DNA of 64,000 nucleotides from Halovivax cerinus (GTDB lineage Archaea > Halobacteriota > Halobacteria > Halobacteriales > Natrialbaceae), in the NCBI RefSeq assembly GCF_024498195.1, contig NZ_CP101824.1, positions 3,100,001 to 3,164,000 of the forward strand. Reading direction: 5' to 3'. Made by a program: the position numbers and the translations under genes. The notes under the pieces are model-generated. The model was not told the DNA's origin and ran no database searches. It worked only from the letters and a program-made list of their open reading frames with translations. This document shows, one piece after another, positions 15,158 to 25,365 of this stretch (position 1 is the first letter of the stretch; each line of letters starts with the position of its first letter).

Positions 15158-16009
15158 TCAGGACCGATCGGAGTCGCTATCGGAGTCGGTGTCCCGATCG
15201 TGGAGCCCCCGGTCGTCGTCGCTATCGGAGTCGGTGTCCCGGTCTCGCACCTCGCGTTCGGCGTCCGTCAGTTCGTCGTCTGTGCCGCCGACGCGGTCGC
15301 CGTCGCCGACGTCCGGATCCATCGCTTCTCCCTCCGATCCCCTGTGAGCCGAGGACGAGCTTCGACCCCGGTCACTCCGCTCCGACCCGGAGAGTCCCGC
15401 GTCGGTGGTACCCGGGTCGTCGTCCATCGGCCGATCGTCCGGCCCGCCGGATCCACTCGACTCCGTTCGTCCACCGGCGACGTCGCGCTCCGGGACACTG
15501 CGGTTGGTTCGGTCGTCTGAATCGGAACGCTCACGCTGGTCGACGTCGCCGACGGGTCCCGTTTCGGTCCCCATCGACTCCTCCGCTCCCAGTTCGCTCC
15601 CCCGGTCACGGCCCCCGTGGTCGCCCGTCGCGTCTCCTCGGCCCGTCCGATCCTCCGGCGTCGACTCGGAATCGTCCCGTCGACCGGTCTCCGCGGACTC
15701 GGTACTCGTACCCGCGTCGCGACCGCTCGACACGTCCTGATCCATCGTCCCCGCCGTCGTGTCGCCGTGGAGTTCTCCACTGAGGTGGATCTCGTCCCCG
15801 GTGATGCGATCGATCGCGTCCTCCTGTAACGGATACGTGTCGTCGCCGGTGTCTTCCCACCCGAGCGCCGCTTTGATACTGTCCGTGAGACCCGGATCCG
15901 GGTTGATACGAGCGGTCCCGTGTTCGACTGCCGTCACCATCCCGACTTCCTCGCCGCTCGCGTTCACCACGGTCTTTCCCACGTCGTCGTCGCCGAATGC
16001 TGCGCACAT
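15158..16009 (-). CDS. PRC-barrel-like N-terminal protein with long disordered acidic tail
   Basis: The start is ATG 16009 (MCAAFGDDDVGKTVV); an in-frame extension to 16081 is not conserved-looking. Residues 1-85 resemble a PRC-barrel/DUF2171-type beta domain (GKTVVNASGEEVGMVTAVE ... LGWEDTGDDTYPLQEDAIDRIT). The other ~200 residues are Ser/Asp/Arg/Gly/Thr-rich and disordered, and end in a repeated RDTDSDSD-type unit (encoded by DNA repeats near 15165-15240). The tail probably arose by repeat expansion. The role is unknown; PRC-barrels elsewhere sit in ribosome maturation and cell-division proteins. Confidence 0.6.
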   Translation of the reverse strand: MCAAFGDDDVGKTVVNASGEEVGMVTAVEHGTARINPDPGLTDSIKAALGWEDTGDDTYPLQEDAIDRITGDEIHLSGELHGDTTAGTMDQDVSSGRDAGTSTESAETGRRDDSESTPEDRTGRGDATGDHGGRDRGSELGAEESMGTETGPVGDVDQRERSDSDDRTNRSVPERDVAGGRTESSGSGGPDDRPMDDDPGTTDAGLSGSERSDRGRSSSSAHRGSEGEAMDPDVGDGDRVGGTDDELTDAEREVRDRDTDSDSDDDRGLHDRDTDSDSDSDRS

Positions 16010-16155
16010 AGCAACGATACTGTCGACGATGTCGTGTATGCCAGTGGTGCTTGCACAGACCGGGACGGAAACGATCCCCACACGCTGACCAAATTAGCAG
16101 TCTCCTCCATCCGACTACAGACTCCTCAATCCCTCGAACACACACCCTGACCCAC

Positions 16156-20495: not shown

Positions 20496-20786
20496 TCAGG
20501 CGACGACTTCTTCTTCGTCGTCCGGTTCGCGGACGCGCTCTACGACGTCGGCGACGAGAATGACGTCGCCCACGGCTCGCACCCAGCGATAAGGGACGAC
20601 GACGCCCTGTCCCTGACTGGCTTCCTGTTCGAACAGTTCCGTGCTGAGACTCCCGACGGCGAGTCCCGTTACCGTTCGCACGTCGAGGTTGAGCTTGAGA
20701 TCTTCGACTTCACCGACGAAGACGCCGTTCTTCGTGTAGACTTCGCGTCCGACCAGGGACGTGATCTCCTGTGGTCGTTGCTCCAT
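20496..20786 (-). CDS. PRC-barrel domain protein
   Basis: A 96-residue protein that is almost entirely one PRC-barrel: ITSLVGREVYTKNGVFVGEV, a second strand set LKLNLDVRTVTGLAVG, then VVVPYRWVRAVGDVILV. It has an acidic C-terminus. Archaeal stand-alone PRC-barrel proteins (CdpB-type) act in cell division together with SepF and FtsZ in some haloarchaea. This gene is of the right size for that group, but I cannot tell which paralogue it is. It is convergent with the DHH gene and downstream of the long coiled-coil gene on the same strand (75-base gap). Confidence 0.8.
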   Translation of the reverse strand: MEQRPQEITSLVGREVYTKNGVFVGEVEDLKLNLDVRTVTGLAVGSLSTELFEQEASQGQGVVVPYRWVRAVGDVILVADVVERVREPDDEEEVVA

Positions 20787-20861: not shown

Positions 20862-23390
20862 TCACCGCGACCCAAGCACGCCGCCGATCCCCACGACGCC
20901 CAGGACGACGGCGGCGATTCCGACTTCGAACGCACCCGAGACGACGAGTGCGATCCCCGAGACCACGCCCGCACTGGCCCCGCCCGCGACGAGGCTGGCG
21001 ACGTCGACGCCCGATGCATCCTGGTCGGACGTCGCCGTCTCGTTCGATTCGGAACGCGACGCCGAGAGGTCGTGAACACGCCGATCGAGTTCGGCGATTC
21101 GATCGAGCGCGTCCGCCTCGACGTCGTCGTCTGTGCTCGATTCGAGCGTCTCGATTCGTGATTCGATCGACTCGAACCGTCGGTTCGCGTCGTCGAGACG
21201 ATCCAGTTCCTCCTCCAACGTATCCACCCGATCCAGGTCCCCTTCGAGGGTGATCAGTGACTCCTCGAGAGTCTCTACCCGGTCCAGGTCCGCTTCGATA
21301 CGATCCAGATCCTGTGCGAACACGTCGAGTCGATCGTCGACCGATCGCTCGATCGTCGAACGCTCGTCGTCGAGCGCCTGGACAGCCCCAGCGAGGGTAT
21401 CGACGGACAGATCGGTCGTCTCGAGCGTAGCATCCACGTCGCCGAGGTCGTCGGAGACTGTATCGACCGTGGTTCGTACGTCGTCGACGGTCGATTCGAG
21501 CGATTCGATCGCCGCGTCGTTCGCGTCGATGGCCGATTCGGCCGACTCGACGTCGGCGCGAACGGCAGCACCCTGGGCGTCGACGTCCGCCAGGTCGGAT
21601 TCGACCGACGTTAGCCCGGATCGAAGCGCTTCGACGTCGGATTCGATCGCTTCGACATCGGATTCGACCGCGTCAACATCGGACGCGGCCGCTTCGACGT
21701 CGGATTCGATCGCACCGTGTGTGTCCTCTAGCGCGTCGACGGTCTCGGTTAGCGCGGACGCGGTCGATTCGAGTTCGTCGATACGGGTCGAGAGTTCGTC
21801 GTCGTATTCGGAGACGTCAGATTCGAGGGTGTCGACGGCGTCGTCGAGTCTCTCGACGGCTGACTCGCGTGTCTCGATCGCCGTCTCGAGGCGATCGCTC
21901 ACCGAATCGATGTCGGCGGTGTGCGTCGTCCGAAGTTCGTCGATGTCGGTTTCGACGGTCGATTCGAACGTCTCGAGGGCCGCTGTTCGCTCGTCGCGGA
22001 CGCGCTCGATACTGGCTTCCGCGGCGTCGACGTCGTCGGAGAGCGCGTCGAGATCGCGCGCCAGTTCCTCGACGCGGTCTGCCGCGGCGAGGGTCTCGAT
22101 CGACTCCGAGACGTCGGTGAGGAGCGCCTCGGCATCGTCGATGCGTTCCGACATCGCGTCGACGTCTTCGGTCGATGCCGCCGAATCCCCGAGTGACTCG
22201 AGGTCGCCACGCAACCCGTCGAGGTCGGTTCGAACGCCGTCAACCGTCGATCGCAAGTCGTCGAGTTCGTCGTCGCGCGTGCCGAGACGATCGAACAGTC
22301 GCTCGATGGCGTCGTCCGCCACGTCGTCTCCGGCGAGACCGCCACTCGACCCGTCGTCGACGAAGTCGGTCAGTTGCCGATCAGTGCCTGATTCTGTCGA
22401 TTCGTCGTCGACGTGAGGAGACCACGTGACGTCTGTGAAGTCGTCGACGTCTTCCTGCGCGGCGGCGAGGGCACCGCGGACCGCACTCTCCGCCGGGTCG
22501 TCGGCCAGACGGACGCCTCTGATCGAAAACGGGAGCGAGGCGGCGTCGAACCGGCCCCCGAAGAGGTACTCGACGCCGTCGACTGCTCCGGACCCGGCGA
22601 CGGCGACGGGCACGGAGAGTCCGCGCTCGATATCCGCCGCGGCCGACTCCGCGTCGATTGCGTCGACCAGGGAGTCACAGAGGTCGTCGAAGGTCTGCGC
22701 GATGGCCCGATCGAGCCGTCCGCTCGCGTCGGGATCGAGCGAAAACTCGTCGAGCCGAGTCGAGACGGCATCGAGGTCAGTGTCGGCGGCGTTCGCAGCC
22801 CGTTCGATGAGCCACTCCTGCCCAATCGACAGGGAGAACGTGAATACTGGAACGCCGTAGTAGACGAGCGCGACGCCCGTCAGCGTACGGCCGACGTGGA
22901 TCCCGAGCCCGGTGACCGACTCGTCTCCGAGCTGGTCGGCGACGACCGCGTAGCCCGTGCTGACCGGCGTCGGGTCGTATCCGAGCGTGCGAATCGAGTC
23001 GTCGATCGCCGTCCGATGGTGCTCGGTTGGCCGTTCGGCGTCGACGATCGTCCCGGGAACGGTATAGCAGAGTCGAGAATCCGTTTCGTCCGAGAGAAGT
23101 GACTCGAGGAGCGCGTCGAGTGCCGGTTCGGCATACGGGTCGGTCGAGAGGATACCGCCGTCGAAGAGCGGGACCGGATCGGCGTCCGCCTCCGCCGCGG
23201 CCGTCCGTGCGAATTTCCCGACGGCGTACGTGTCACCATCGACGTCGATGGTGAGTCCGTTCCCGGCCTCGGACGCCGTGGACGTATCTATCGGAAAACA
23301 CATCGACTCGACGGTCTCGATAGCAGACTCGTCGAGTCCGTCACGTGCAACTCGCATCAGTGGAGAAGAAAGAGCGAGACCAGTGGCCAT
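20862..23390 (-). CDS. Actin-like domain / giant coiled coil / membrane-hairpin protein
   Basis: 842 residues in three parts. Residues 1-315 resemble an actin/Hsp70-fold ATPase: a PHOSPHATE-2-like strand pair at 161-176 (GLGIHVGRTLTGVALV, with His where Asp is usual), an upstream PTPVSTGYAVVAD block, and an ADENOSINE-type VPVAVAGSGAV at 260-270. PHOSPHATE-1 is not classical. Residues ~358-770 are an almost unbroken acidic coiled coil with repeats such as VESDVEA and IESDVEA. Residues ~794-842 are a Gly/Ala/Val-rich double hydrophobic segment that probably anchors the protein in the membrane. It could be a cytoskeletal or scaffold protein tethering structures to the membrane (inference). It is followed by a PRC-barrel gene. 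I know of no characterised protein with this build. Confidence 0.75.
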   Translation of the reverse strand: MATGLALSSPLMRVARDGLDESAIETVESMCFPIDTSTASEAGNGLTIDVDGDTYAVGKFARTAAAEADADPVPLFDGGILSTDPYAEPALDALLESLLSDETDSRLCYTVPGTIVDAERPTEHHRTAIDDSIRTLGYDPTPVSTGYAVVADQLGDESVTGLGIHVGRTLTGVALVYYGVPVFTFSLSIGQEWLIERAANAADTDLDAVSTRLDEFSLDPDASGRLDRAIAQTFDDLCDSLVDAIDAESAAADIERGLSVPVAVAGSGAVDGVEYLFGGRFDAASLPFSIRGVRLADDPAESAVRGALAAAQEDVDDFTDVTWSPHVDDESTESGTDRQLTDFVDDGSSGGLAGDDVADDAIERLFDRLGTRDDELDDLRSTVDGVRTDLDGLRGDLESLGDSAASTEDVDAMSERIDDAEALLTDVSESIETLAAADRVEELARDLDALSDDVDAAEASIERVRDERTAALETFESTVETDIDELRTTHTADIDSVSDRLETAIETRESAVERLDDAVDTLESDVSEYDDELSTRIDELESTASALTETVDALEDTHGAIESDVEAAASDVDAVESDVEAIESDVEALRSGLTSVESDLADVDAQGAAVRADVESAESAIDANDAAIESLESTVDDVRTTVDTVSDDLGDVDATLETTDLSVDTLAGAVQALDDERSTIERSVDDRLDVFAQDLDRIEADLDRVETLEESLITLEGDLDRVDTLEEELDRLDDANRRFESIESRIETLESSTDDDVEADALDRIAELDRRVHDLSASRSESNETATSDQDASGVDVASLVAGGASAGVVSGIALVVSGAFEVGIAAVVLGVVGIGGVLGSR

Positions 23391-23853
23391 ACTGGACGGA
23401 GTGACCGATCGATAATGGACGTTTCCCTCCGAATACCAGAACTGAAAATCGGCTCCGCAGGAATGGCTGTACAGGTGCCGACGATCGTCGGATCACCCTC
23501 GCGACTCGAACAGCGTAGACGCTACGTCGGGTGTCGACGCGATCGACCCATCAGCACCTGTGCCCGACCGTATGGGCTGTGACGAACGACTCGAGCACCT
23601 CCCGGACCGATTCAGGTTCGGCCGTCCTCCGCGGAGGTCGATCAACCGTCCAGGCCGCGGTGATCGATCATCCGTCCGGGGCGCGGTGCTCGCTCACTCG
23701 TCCAGGCCGCTGTGCTCGACCGGCAGGCACGCTCACGGGCCACCGACAGGCACGCTCACGGGTGCACCGACAGGCACGGCCACACGGCACACACCCGCAC
23801 GCCGAATCGGGAACCTCTACCGTTATAATAGGGGACCGAGAGAACTAGAATAC
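23391..23853. other. Long spacer upstream of pckA, repeat-bearing
   Basis: 463 bases between divergent genes. It holds two tandem-repeat arrays (listed separately) and, at 23823-23830, the TTATAATA box of pckA, 24-31 bases before its ATG, predicting a leaderless mRNA. An in-frame upstream extension of pckA to 23560 runs through the repeats and is rejected. No other gene is visible. Confidence 0.6.
23635..23787. repeat. Two adjacent tandem arrays: 3 x 26 bp and 2.7 x 23-24 bp
   Basis: Array 1 has units at 23635-23660, 23661-23686 and 23687-23712 (common core gatc-atc-cgtccaggccgcgg). Array 2 has units at 23724-23746, 23747-23770 and a partial one from 23771 (core caggcacgctcacggg..caccga). 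The two arrays are unrelated in sequence and lie 36-190 bases upstream of the pckA TATA box. Confidence 0.75.
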
Positions 23854-25365
23854 ATGTCCGAAACCGGGACAGAGCCGCCGACGTACGCACAGCGGCTCCC
23901 CGACCCTGCGAGCACGTCGAACGTTCGGTACAACCCGACACTCACGGTACTCCGCGAACTCGCACGCGACGACGAACGCCAGACCGAGTACGGTTCGCCC
24001 GCGTACGTCAGCGAGTACCGTTCCCGCAGTGCGGACCGCACCAAGAACGCGATCGACCACGATCTGACGGACGAGGATCACGAGCGGGTCCGCGACGCGA
24101 TCCGATCCGCCTCGGACCGTGAGCTGCTCTGTGTCGATCGACTCGTCGGTCGTCACCCCGACGCCACCTTCTGCTGTCGGCTGTACGTTCCGACCGAACA
24201 CGCACGAATCGCACTCACCTGGGCCAAACTCTTCGAACCGACGGACGGTCGCGAACCGGATTTCCACACCCTGCAACTTCCCGACCACGACGAGACGGCG
24301 ATACGCGTCTTTCCGGAGGAGGGTACGACCGTCGTCCTCGGCTCCGACTACACCGGCGAGGCGAAAAAGTCGTTCCTCCGACTGTTCATGTACCGTGCGA
24401 AACGAGCCGGCGGGCTCGGACTTCACGCCGGCAGTAAACGCGTGACAGTGTCGGACGCCGAGGGAACCCAACGAACCGTCGGACAGCTCTTTCTCGGCCT
24501 CTCTGCGACCGGCAAGTCGACGCTCACATCACACGGCTGCTGGTTAGAGGAGCCGGAACACGCGGCGATGTTACAGGACGACGTCTGCGCGTTACTCCCG
24601 GACGGCTCGGTCGCGGGAAGCGAAGGGCAGGGACTCTACATCAAGACGGACGGGTTGACGAAGTCCGAACAGCCAGCGCTGTACGAGGCCGCGACGGCAG
24701 ACTCCGCCGTCCTCGAGAACGTCGTGGTCGCGGACGACGGGACCGTCGACTTCGACGACGACCGTTACACCGCGAACGCGCGCGCGGTCGTCCAGCGATC
24801 CGAACTGTCGAGCGCCGCCGACGAGATCGATCTCCCGCACGTCGACCAGATCTTCTTCATCACGCGTAACCCCCTCATGCCGCCGGTCACCAGACTCGAC
24901 GATCGCCAGGCGGCGGTCGCGTTCATGCTCGGCGAATCGATCGAAACGAGTGCGGGGGATCCGTCGCGAGCCGGGGAGTCCATCCGCGTCGTGGGGACGA
25001 ACCCGTTCATCGTCGGCTCCGAAGGCGAGGAGGGGAACGTGTTCAGGGATCTCGTCCGATCGCTCGACGTCGACTGCTACGTCATGAACACGGGCTTCAT
25101 CGGAGACGAGTCCATCGACGTCGGCGTCTACGAGTCGGTGACGCTCCTGACCGAGATCGCGAGAGGGACGATCGAGTGGCGGGCGGACGATCGAATGGGA
25201 CTGACGATTCCCGACGAGGTCCCCGGCCTCGACATCGATCGGTACTACGTTCCCGACCACGTCGACGACTACGACGCGGCCAGCTCGGCGCTCAGAGACG
25301 ATCGCGCGTCGTATCTTGACTCGTTCCCGCACCTCGACGACGAGATCACGAACGCCGTCTACTAA
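23854..25365 (+). CDS. pckA: Phosphoenolpyruvate carboxykinase (ATP)
   Basis: Converts oxaloacetate and ATP to PEP, CO2 and ADP, the entry step of gluconeogenesis. The 503-residue sequence has the kinase-1a P-loop GLSATGKSTLTSH, the nearby metal-binding LQDDVCALL, and the FFITRNPLMPPVTRL block with catalytic arginine. It is somewhat shorter than bacterial PckA (about 530-540) and of the haloarchaeal type. ATG 23854 follows the TATA box at 23823. Confidence 0.93.
   Translation: MSETGTEPPTYAQRLPDPASTSNVRYNPTLTVLRELARDDERQTEYGSPAYVSEYRSRSADRTKNAIDHDLTDEDHERVRDAIRSASDRELLCVDRLVGRHPDATFCCRLYVPTEHARIALTWAKLFEPTDGREPDFHTLQLPDHDETAIRVFPEEGTTVVLGSDYTGEAKKSFLRLFMYRAKRAGGLGLHAGSKRVTVSDAEGTQRTVGQLFLGLSATGKSTLTSHGCWLEEPEHAAMLQDDVCALLPDGSVAGSEGQGLYIKTDGLTKSEQPALYEAATADSAVLENVVVADDGTVDFDDDRYTANARAVVQRSELSSAADEIDLPHVDQIFFITRNPLMPPVTRLDDRQAAVAFMLGESIETSAGDPSRAGESIRVVGTNPFIVGSEGEEGNVFRDLVRSLDVDCYVMNTGFIGDESIDVGVYESVTLLTEIARGTIEWRADDRMGLTIPDEVPGLDIDRYYVPDHVDDYDAASSALRDDRASYLDSFPHLDDEITNAVY

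Follow-up and report, generated by a model that had tools for sequence, protein, structure and literature searches.

The window, the whole stretch of 64,000 nucleotides analysed here from Halovivax cerinus, contained at 20862-23390 on the minus strand a single open reading frame with an ATG start, encoding 842 aa followed by a stop codon. In order, the chain comprised an actin-fold head (residues 1-316), a nearly uninterrupted acidic coiled coil (about 355-749) and, at the C-terminus, a double hydrophobic segment, so that the three elements named in the original prediction were all found in the product. The features of the locus were the following:

20496..20786, minus strand: downstream neighbour, a PRC-barrel protein of 96 aa (PF05239, E 3e-10), not a conserved partner
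20862..23390, minus strand: the whole gene, a long volactin paralogue (coiled-coil and probably membrane-anchored), supported by orthologues and by purifying selection among them
20865..21008, minus strand: Gly/Ala/Val-rich double hydrophobic segment, residues 795-842, from hydropathy and conservation in orthologues
21144..22328, minus strand: acidic coiled-coil rod, residues 355-749, from composition, heptad periodicity and modelled helix
22263..22316, minus strand: conserved neck motif at the start of the rod, residues 359-376, DDAIxxLFDRLxxRDxEI (28 of 38 long forms)
22329..22442, minus strand: low-confidence linker between head and rod, residues 317-354 (AlphaFold2 pLDDT below 50 over 318-358)
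22443..23390, minus strand: volactin/actin-fold head, residues 1-316, from PF25216, AlphaFold2, Foldseek and the profile match to short volactin
22575..22613, minus strand: ADENOSINE position, residues 260-272, eroded, VPVAVAGSGAVDG, aligned with VPVVVTGGTSSPxG of short volactin
22878..22913, minus strand: PHOSPHATE-2 position, residues 160-171, TGLGIHVGRTLT, aligned with TGLGISFGAGMT of short volactin
23358..23381, minus strand: PHOSPHATE-1 position, residues 4-11, degenerate, GLALSSPL, against GLDVGTMN in short volactin
23560..25365, plus strand: ATP-type PEP carboxykinase (pckA), divergent, upstream, the most often conserved neighbour

The linker is probably disordered, as judged from the model. 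A Ser/Arg-rich open reading frame of 427 codons lay antisense within the rod (21133-22416, plus strand); it is most likely no gene but an artefact produced by the D/E-rich heptads of the opposite strand. The NCBIfam match of the pckA frame started at residue 107, and the true start of this gene is probably downstream of the listed one. Elsewhere in the window (15158-16081, minus strand), a 307-aa protein was encoded that consisted of an N-terminal domain of ~75 residues and a long, acidic tail of low complexity, with a Halovivax asiaticus orthologue at 52% identity.

The head matched the Pfam Volactin family (PF25216) at residues 1-311 with an E-value of 8e-92 (308.6 bits vs. a cut-off of 35) over the full profile (1-321 of 321), and its profile-profile comparison with short volactins gave 1.6e-57 over 320 columns. 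AlphaFold2, run on an alignment of 30 heads, modelled residues 1-325 as a two-lobed actin fold (pLDDT 89.1, pTM 0.89). A Foldseek search of the PDB with this model returned 628 matches at E<=0.001, actin, PilM and FtsA among them, headed by MamK (5ljv, 8e-13) and MreB (4czl, 9e-13) at TM ~0.65-0.68 and ~15% identity. MamK and MreB chains are not known to carry a coiled coil or a membrane hairpin. The actin/Hsp70 fold proposed for the N-terminal domain was thus borne out by structure prediction and structural search; the suggestion of a new actin class was not, as the head is a member of the known volactin family, on a paralogous branch of it. The match also shows that the members of PF25216 are not all single-domain volactins.

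A short volactin was encoded in the same genome outside the window (344 aa; G000:C1:3171887-3172738, open reading frame L002:1357-2391; 457.6 bits vs. PF25216) and was 35% identical to the long protein. Short volactins are highly conserved single domains of ~340 aa with no rod and no membrane segment, from which the long form differs by an added linker, the neck motif, a coiled coil of 100-900 residues, the probable membrane hairpin and eroded nucleotide motifs. When 38 long and 39 short heads were placed in one tree, a single split (support 99/94) divided the two sets. Given its 842 aa and its place outside the short group, the window protein is a paralogue and not the volactin orthologue, for which L002:1357-2391 is the candidate.

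Volactin matches were present in 217 of the 392 genomes of the window's order. Of 96 sampled Natrialbaceae genomes with any volactin match, about 73 (counted by hand from the table) had two or more, the extra match being the long form, in open frames of ~650-1560 residues where listed. About 23 had no long form, including one single-contig genome (G024), and the long form is therefore dispensable. Every sampled long-form genome had at least two volactin matches, i.e. canonical volactin too, but short volactin is nearly universal in Natrialbaceae and the co-occurrence therefore says little on partnership. The Halovivax asiaticus orthologue was 60% identical. Outside the Natrialbaceae, long forms were detected in Halorubellus salinus (L063), three genomes of family f7 and two of f10; among 295 genomes sampled from the phylum, short volactins extended well beyond the window's order and long frames were present in f1 and f7 only. 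The long forms of f7 and f10 were long-branched and fell between those of the Natrialbaceae and the short forms, a placement which makes a single origin of the long forms possible, not proven.

A viral origin was rejected: the search of IMG/VR viral contigs returned no encoded relative and PHROG contained no family for the head. A plasmid origin was likewise rejected, with four distant plasmid matches only (37-38% identity, query coverage 24-25%); these (H1-H4) were volactin-like genes carried by large Natrinema thermotolerans and Haloarcula plasmids and annotated as hypothetical proteins. One Rhizobium match (L065, E 2e-4) was set aside as chance. The C-terminal portion of the Volactin profile gave weak matches (E 1e-6 to 5e-4; for example G080:C1:243311-243574, G043:C1:253282-253542 and G422:C1:1055266-1055658), mostly in frames of ~350-390 residues, across many haloarchaeal genomes and some further members of the phylum; these possibly represent the salactin family. 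One genome (G162; L103, L104, L115, L120, L130) encoded the identical short volactin protein twice, on separate contigs, and had a third copy, broken into two frames at the end of a contig, which is probably decaying.

The long heads evolved fast: in three genome pairs the short volactins were 92-93% identical and the long heads 38-46%, and 91 of the 141 columns invariant in short volactins were not kept in the Natrialbaceae long forms. The head is therefore probably not simply another copolymerising subunit. In six close pairs, dN/dS was 0.17-0.35 for the head, 0.27-0.41 for the rod and 0.10-0.44 for the tail; all three parts are under purifying selection and the long-volactin genes thus look functional. 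Together with the orthologues found throughout the Natrialbaceae, the head values indicate that the long volactin is more than a chance frame.

The nucleotide motifs lay where they had been predicted (PHOSPHATE-2 at about 160-171, ADENOSINE at about 260-272), and PHOSPHATE-1 was, as also stated beforehand, not classical in the window protein (GLALSSP). This loss (ALSS for DxGT) was peculiar to the window protein and its nearest Halovivax relatives, most long orthologues having GLDIGxxA, with DIG retained. At PHOSPHATE-2 the usual Asp was replaced by His in the window protein, which had been taken as a possible sign of lost hydrolysis; the same site was Ser in 39 of 39 short volactins examined, and this Ser stood opposite the MreB Asp in a profile alignment. 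Since short volactin forms dynamic filaments (PMC10869688), the substitution alone is no argument for lost hydrolysis. In the long forms the ADENOSINE motif had eroded from GGTSS to AGxGA (AGSG for GGT/S in the window protein), and PHOSPHATE-2 was eroded as well. The window protein thus lacked the three classical motifs of the ASKHA fold; its membership rests on structure and homology, and nucleotide binding is putative.

These features bear on the possibility that the long volactin is a second, self-assembling actin, with heads polymerising into a membrane-attached filament or ring of their own, resembling MreB except for an anchor and a bundling coiled coil within the chain. The structural closeness to the filament-forming MamK and MreB speaks for it, as does the retention, in most long orthologues, of DIG at PHOSPHATE-1 and Thr at PHOSPHATE-2. 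It appears unlikely nevertheless, given the erosion of the ADENOSINE and PHOSPHATE motifs, with the PHOSPHATE-1 Asp lost in the window protein and its nearest relatives, the linker and the rod, as long as 900 residues, that come after the head, and a rate of head evolution unusual for a polymer surface constrained by self-contacts.

The rod was strongly acidic (32% D/E, 8% K/R) and showed a hydrophobic periodicity of 3.515 residues with a power of 11.2 (at most 2.6 in 40 shuffles). The full-length AlphaFold2 model was helical over 355-749 with short breaks, at modest pLDDT (~40-74); periodicity and model agree with the earlier expectation of a helical coiled coil, not a disordered segment. If fully helical, the rod would measure ~59 nm. 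Across long forms its length varied from ~105 to 913 residues (~16-136 nm if helical). The neck motif was present in most Natrialbaceae long forms and in Halorubellus, with L365, R368 and D373 invariant in the alignment. Head, neck motif and Gly-rich hairpin were conserved in the Natrialbaceae long forms and the rod was variable; conserved ends joined by a rod of free length suggest a linker rather than a ruler.

In length the chain had originally been likened to SMC proteins, and a nucleoid- or chromosome-linked SMC-like tether would fit the sub-threshold similarity of the rod to SMC, Rad50 and ASRP rods as well as the role of salactin in DNA distribution in Halobacterium (PMC10746226). No SMC ATPase match was obtained above cut-off, however; the scores (ASRP 65 of 300 bits, SMC 58 of 567, Rad50 48 of 1087) were far under the curated cut-offs and came from coiled-coil stretches only, as is typical of coiled-coil cross-matching, so that these identities were rejected. 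The coiled coil is the sole likeness, and the strong acidity of the rod also argues against this explanation, which is very improbable and was ranked least likely. An EzrA-like septation regulator was discarded as well (Pfam EzrA, 25.6 bits vs. a gathering threshold of 39.6, over a coiled-coil stretch only), and so were arcadin-4, tropomyosin and similar coiled-coil cross-matches, the functionally interesting ones being under curated cut-offs.

The C-terminal segment (residues 795-842) had Kyte-Doolittle peaks of 1.91 and 2.33 and is, from its sequence, a probable membrane hairpin. Its extreme C-terminus was strongly conserved in orthologues (AGGGGAGVVAG...G...G....LG), and AlphaFold2 confidence for the tail was low. 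When 26 genomes were searched with a tail profile, the clear matches were long volactins, one of them (G634) in a frame of 329 residues at the edge of its contig. The hydropathy peaks and the retention of the tail in orthologues support the proposed membrane anchor as probable.

No co-directional conserved operon partner was found by synteny around the orthologues (32 loci). Upstream, the divergent pckA and beyond it the L11-L1-L10 ribosomal genes were conserved in ~18 of the 32 loci; the downstream neighbour was a convergent transporter-like gene. The PRC-barrel gene had been considered a link to division, and CdpB1 and CdpB2 are PRC-barrel proteins acting in Haloferax division (PMC12186497); two PRC-barrel matches were detected in the window genome and would fit as candidates for this pair. 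An orthologue of the neighbour was present in 10 of 10 genomes searched but adjoined the long volactin gene in Halovivax only; in the remaining long-form Natrialbaceae examined it lay 28-42 kb away. Gene order thus shows no conserved association with division, and conserved linkage to a PRC-barrel gene, as expected of a CdpB-type division complex partner, was rejected.

The same evidence weighs on the idea that a degenerate actin fold serves as a PilM/FtsA-like docking module, making the protein a scaffold that serves a membrane or division complex and acts independently of volactin filaments. PilM and FtsA were indeed among the structural matches, and the Halovivax gene adjoins a gene of the protein type of CdpB1 and CdpB2. 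With adjacency limited to Halovivax and no conserved co-directional partner gene, a docking scaffold of this kind is improbable. The long gene shared no operon with volactin. The short volactin of the window genome, ~48 kb from the long gene, lay directly 3' of a gene for a DUF7139 protein (PF23600; L002:337-1260) that has several hydrophobic segments, ends in a hydrophilic tail and is possibly a membrane partner of ordinary volactin.

Other archaeal and bacterial actins provide partial parallels. The archaeal actin crenactin is paired with a coiled-coil partner, arcadin-4 (Rkd4). A weak cross-match to Rkd4 was given by the long-volactin rod, but arcadin-4 is a separate SMC/Rad50-related chain (PMC9389158), whereas the coiled coil of long volactin is in the same chain. 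Mad28 of magnetotactic bacteria is a membrane-associated second actin beside MamK, studied with coiled-coil magnetosome proteins; unlike long volactin, it has no transmembrane region and the coiled-coil proteins are separate chains (PMC12713370). Salactin of Halobacterium salinarum, likewise a haloarchaeal actin homologue with dynamic filaments, has, compared by its description, an actin fold and a charged disordered N-terminal tail, with a coiled coil unmentioned (PMC10746226). Volactin itself (VolA, HVO_2015, PF25216), which the long head resembles over the full profile, is the only volactin with known dynamic filaments in vivo; in Haloferax these bridge the cytoplasm and touch the membrane by their tips, with no anchor named (PMC10869688). 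A limited search of the open-access literature turned up no account of a protein in which an actin-family head, a coiled coil and a membrane hairpin are fused, in keeping with the earlier statement that the same-chain actin/coiled-coil architecture is unprecedented.

From this architecture, the homology of the head to a filament subunit, the constant presence of the long subfamily beside short volactin and the published tip-membrane contact (PMC10869688), we infer a membrane tether which would link volactin filaments to the membrane by docking or nucleation, a reading with slightly less than an even chance. The C-terminal Gly-rich hairpin would sit in the cytoplasmic membrane, and the acidic coiled coil may dimerise or oligomerise the chain and project the head into the cytoplasm. 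The head, freed from the tight constraint on filament volactin, would dock on or nucleate canonical volactin filaments, most likely at their ends, and the long protein would thereby link them to the membrane. Absence from about a quarter of the Natrialbaceae, a position outside any operon with volactin and the low AlphaFold2 confidence for the tail count against this reading. The broader proposal, of a single-chain membrane-anchored actin acting as a second, fast-evolving part of the Natrialbaceae cytoskeleton by which volactin filaments are anchored or nucleated at the membrane, is put forward tentatively, at somewhat less than an even chance. Long volactin cannot be the general anchor, because Haloferax volcanii, reportedly with volactin as its one known actin homologue (PMC7617734), has filaments reaching the membrane.

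Degenerate nucleotide motifs, patchy presence and fast evolution could also be expected of a lineage-specific, largely dispensable regulator which sequesters or caps volactin subunits and damps filament formation. A conserved hairpin and a long rod are unneeded for simple sequestration, and both the tail and the rod are under purifying selection; such a regulator is quite unlikely.

If the single-chain anchored actin is correct, actin itself would have given rise to a separate class of actin-associated proteins in archaea. Long volactin is also an unusual case in which an actin was duplicated and rebuilt into an apparent actin-binding tether. The variable rod between conserved ends offers a natural experiment on the spacing between filament and membrane, and for the tip attachment of volactin filaments the long volactin is an explicit, testable linker candidate in one large haloarchaeal family.
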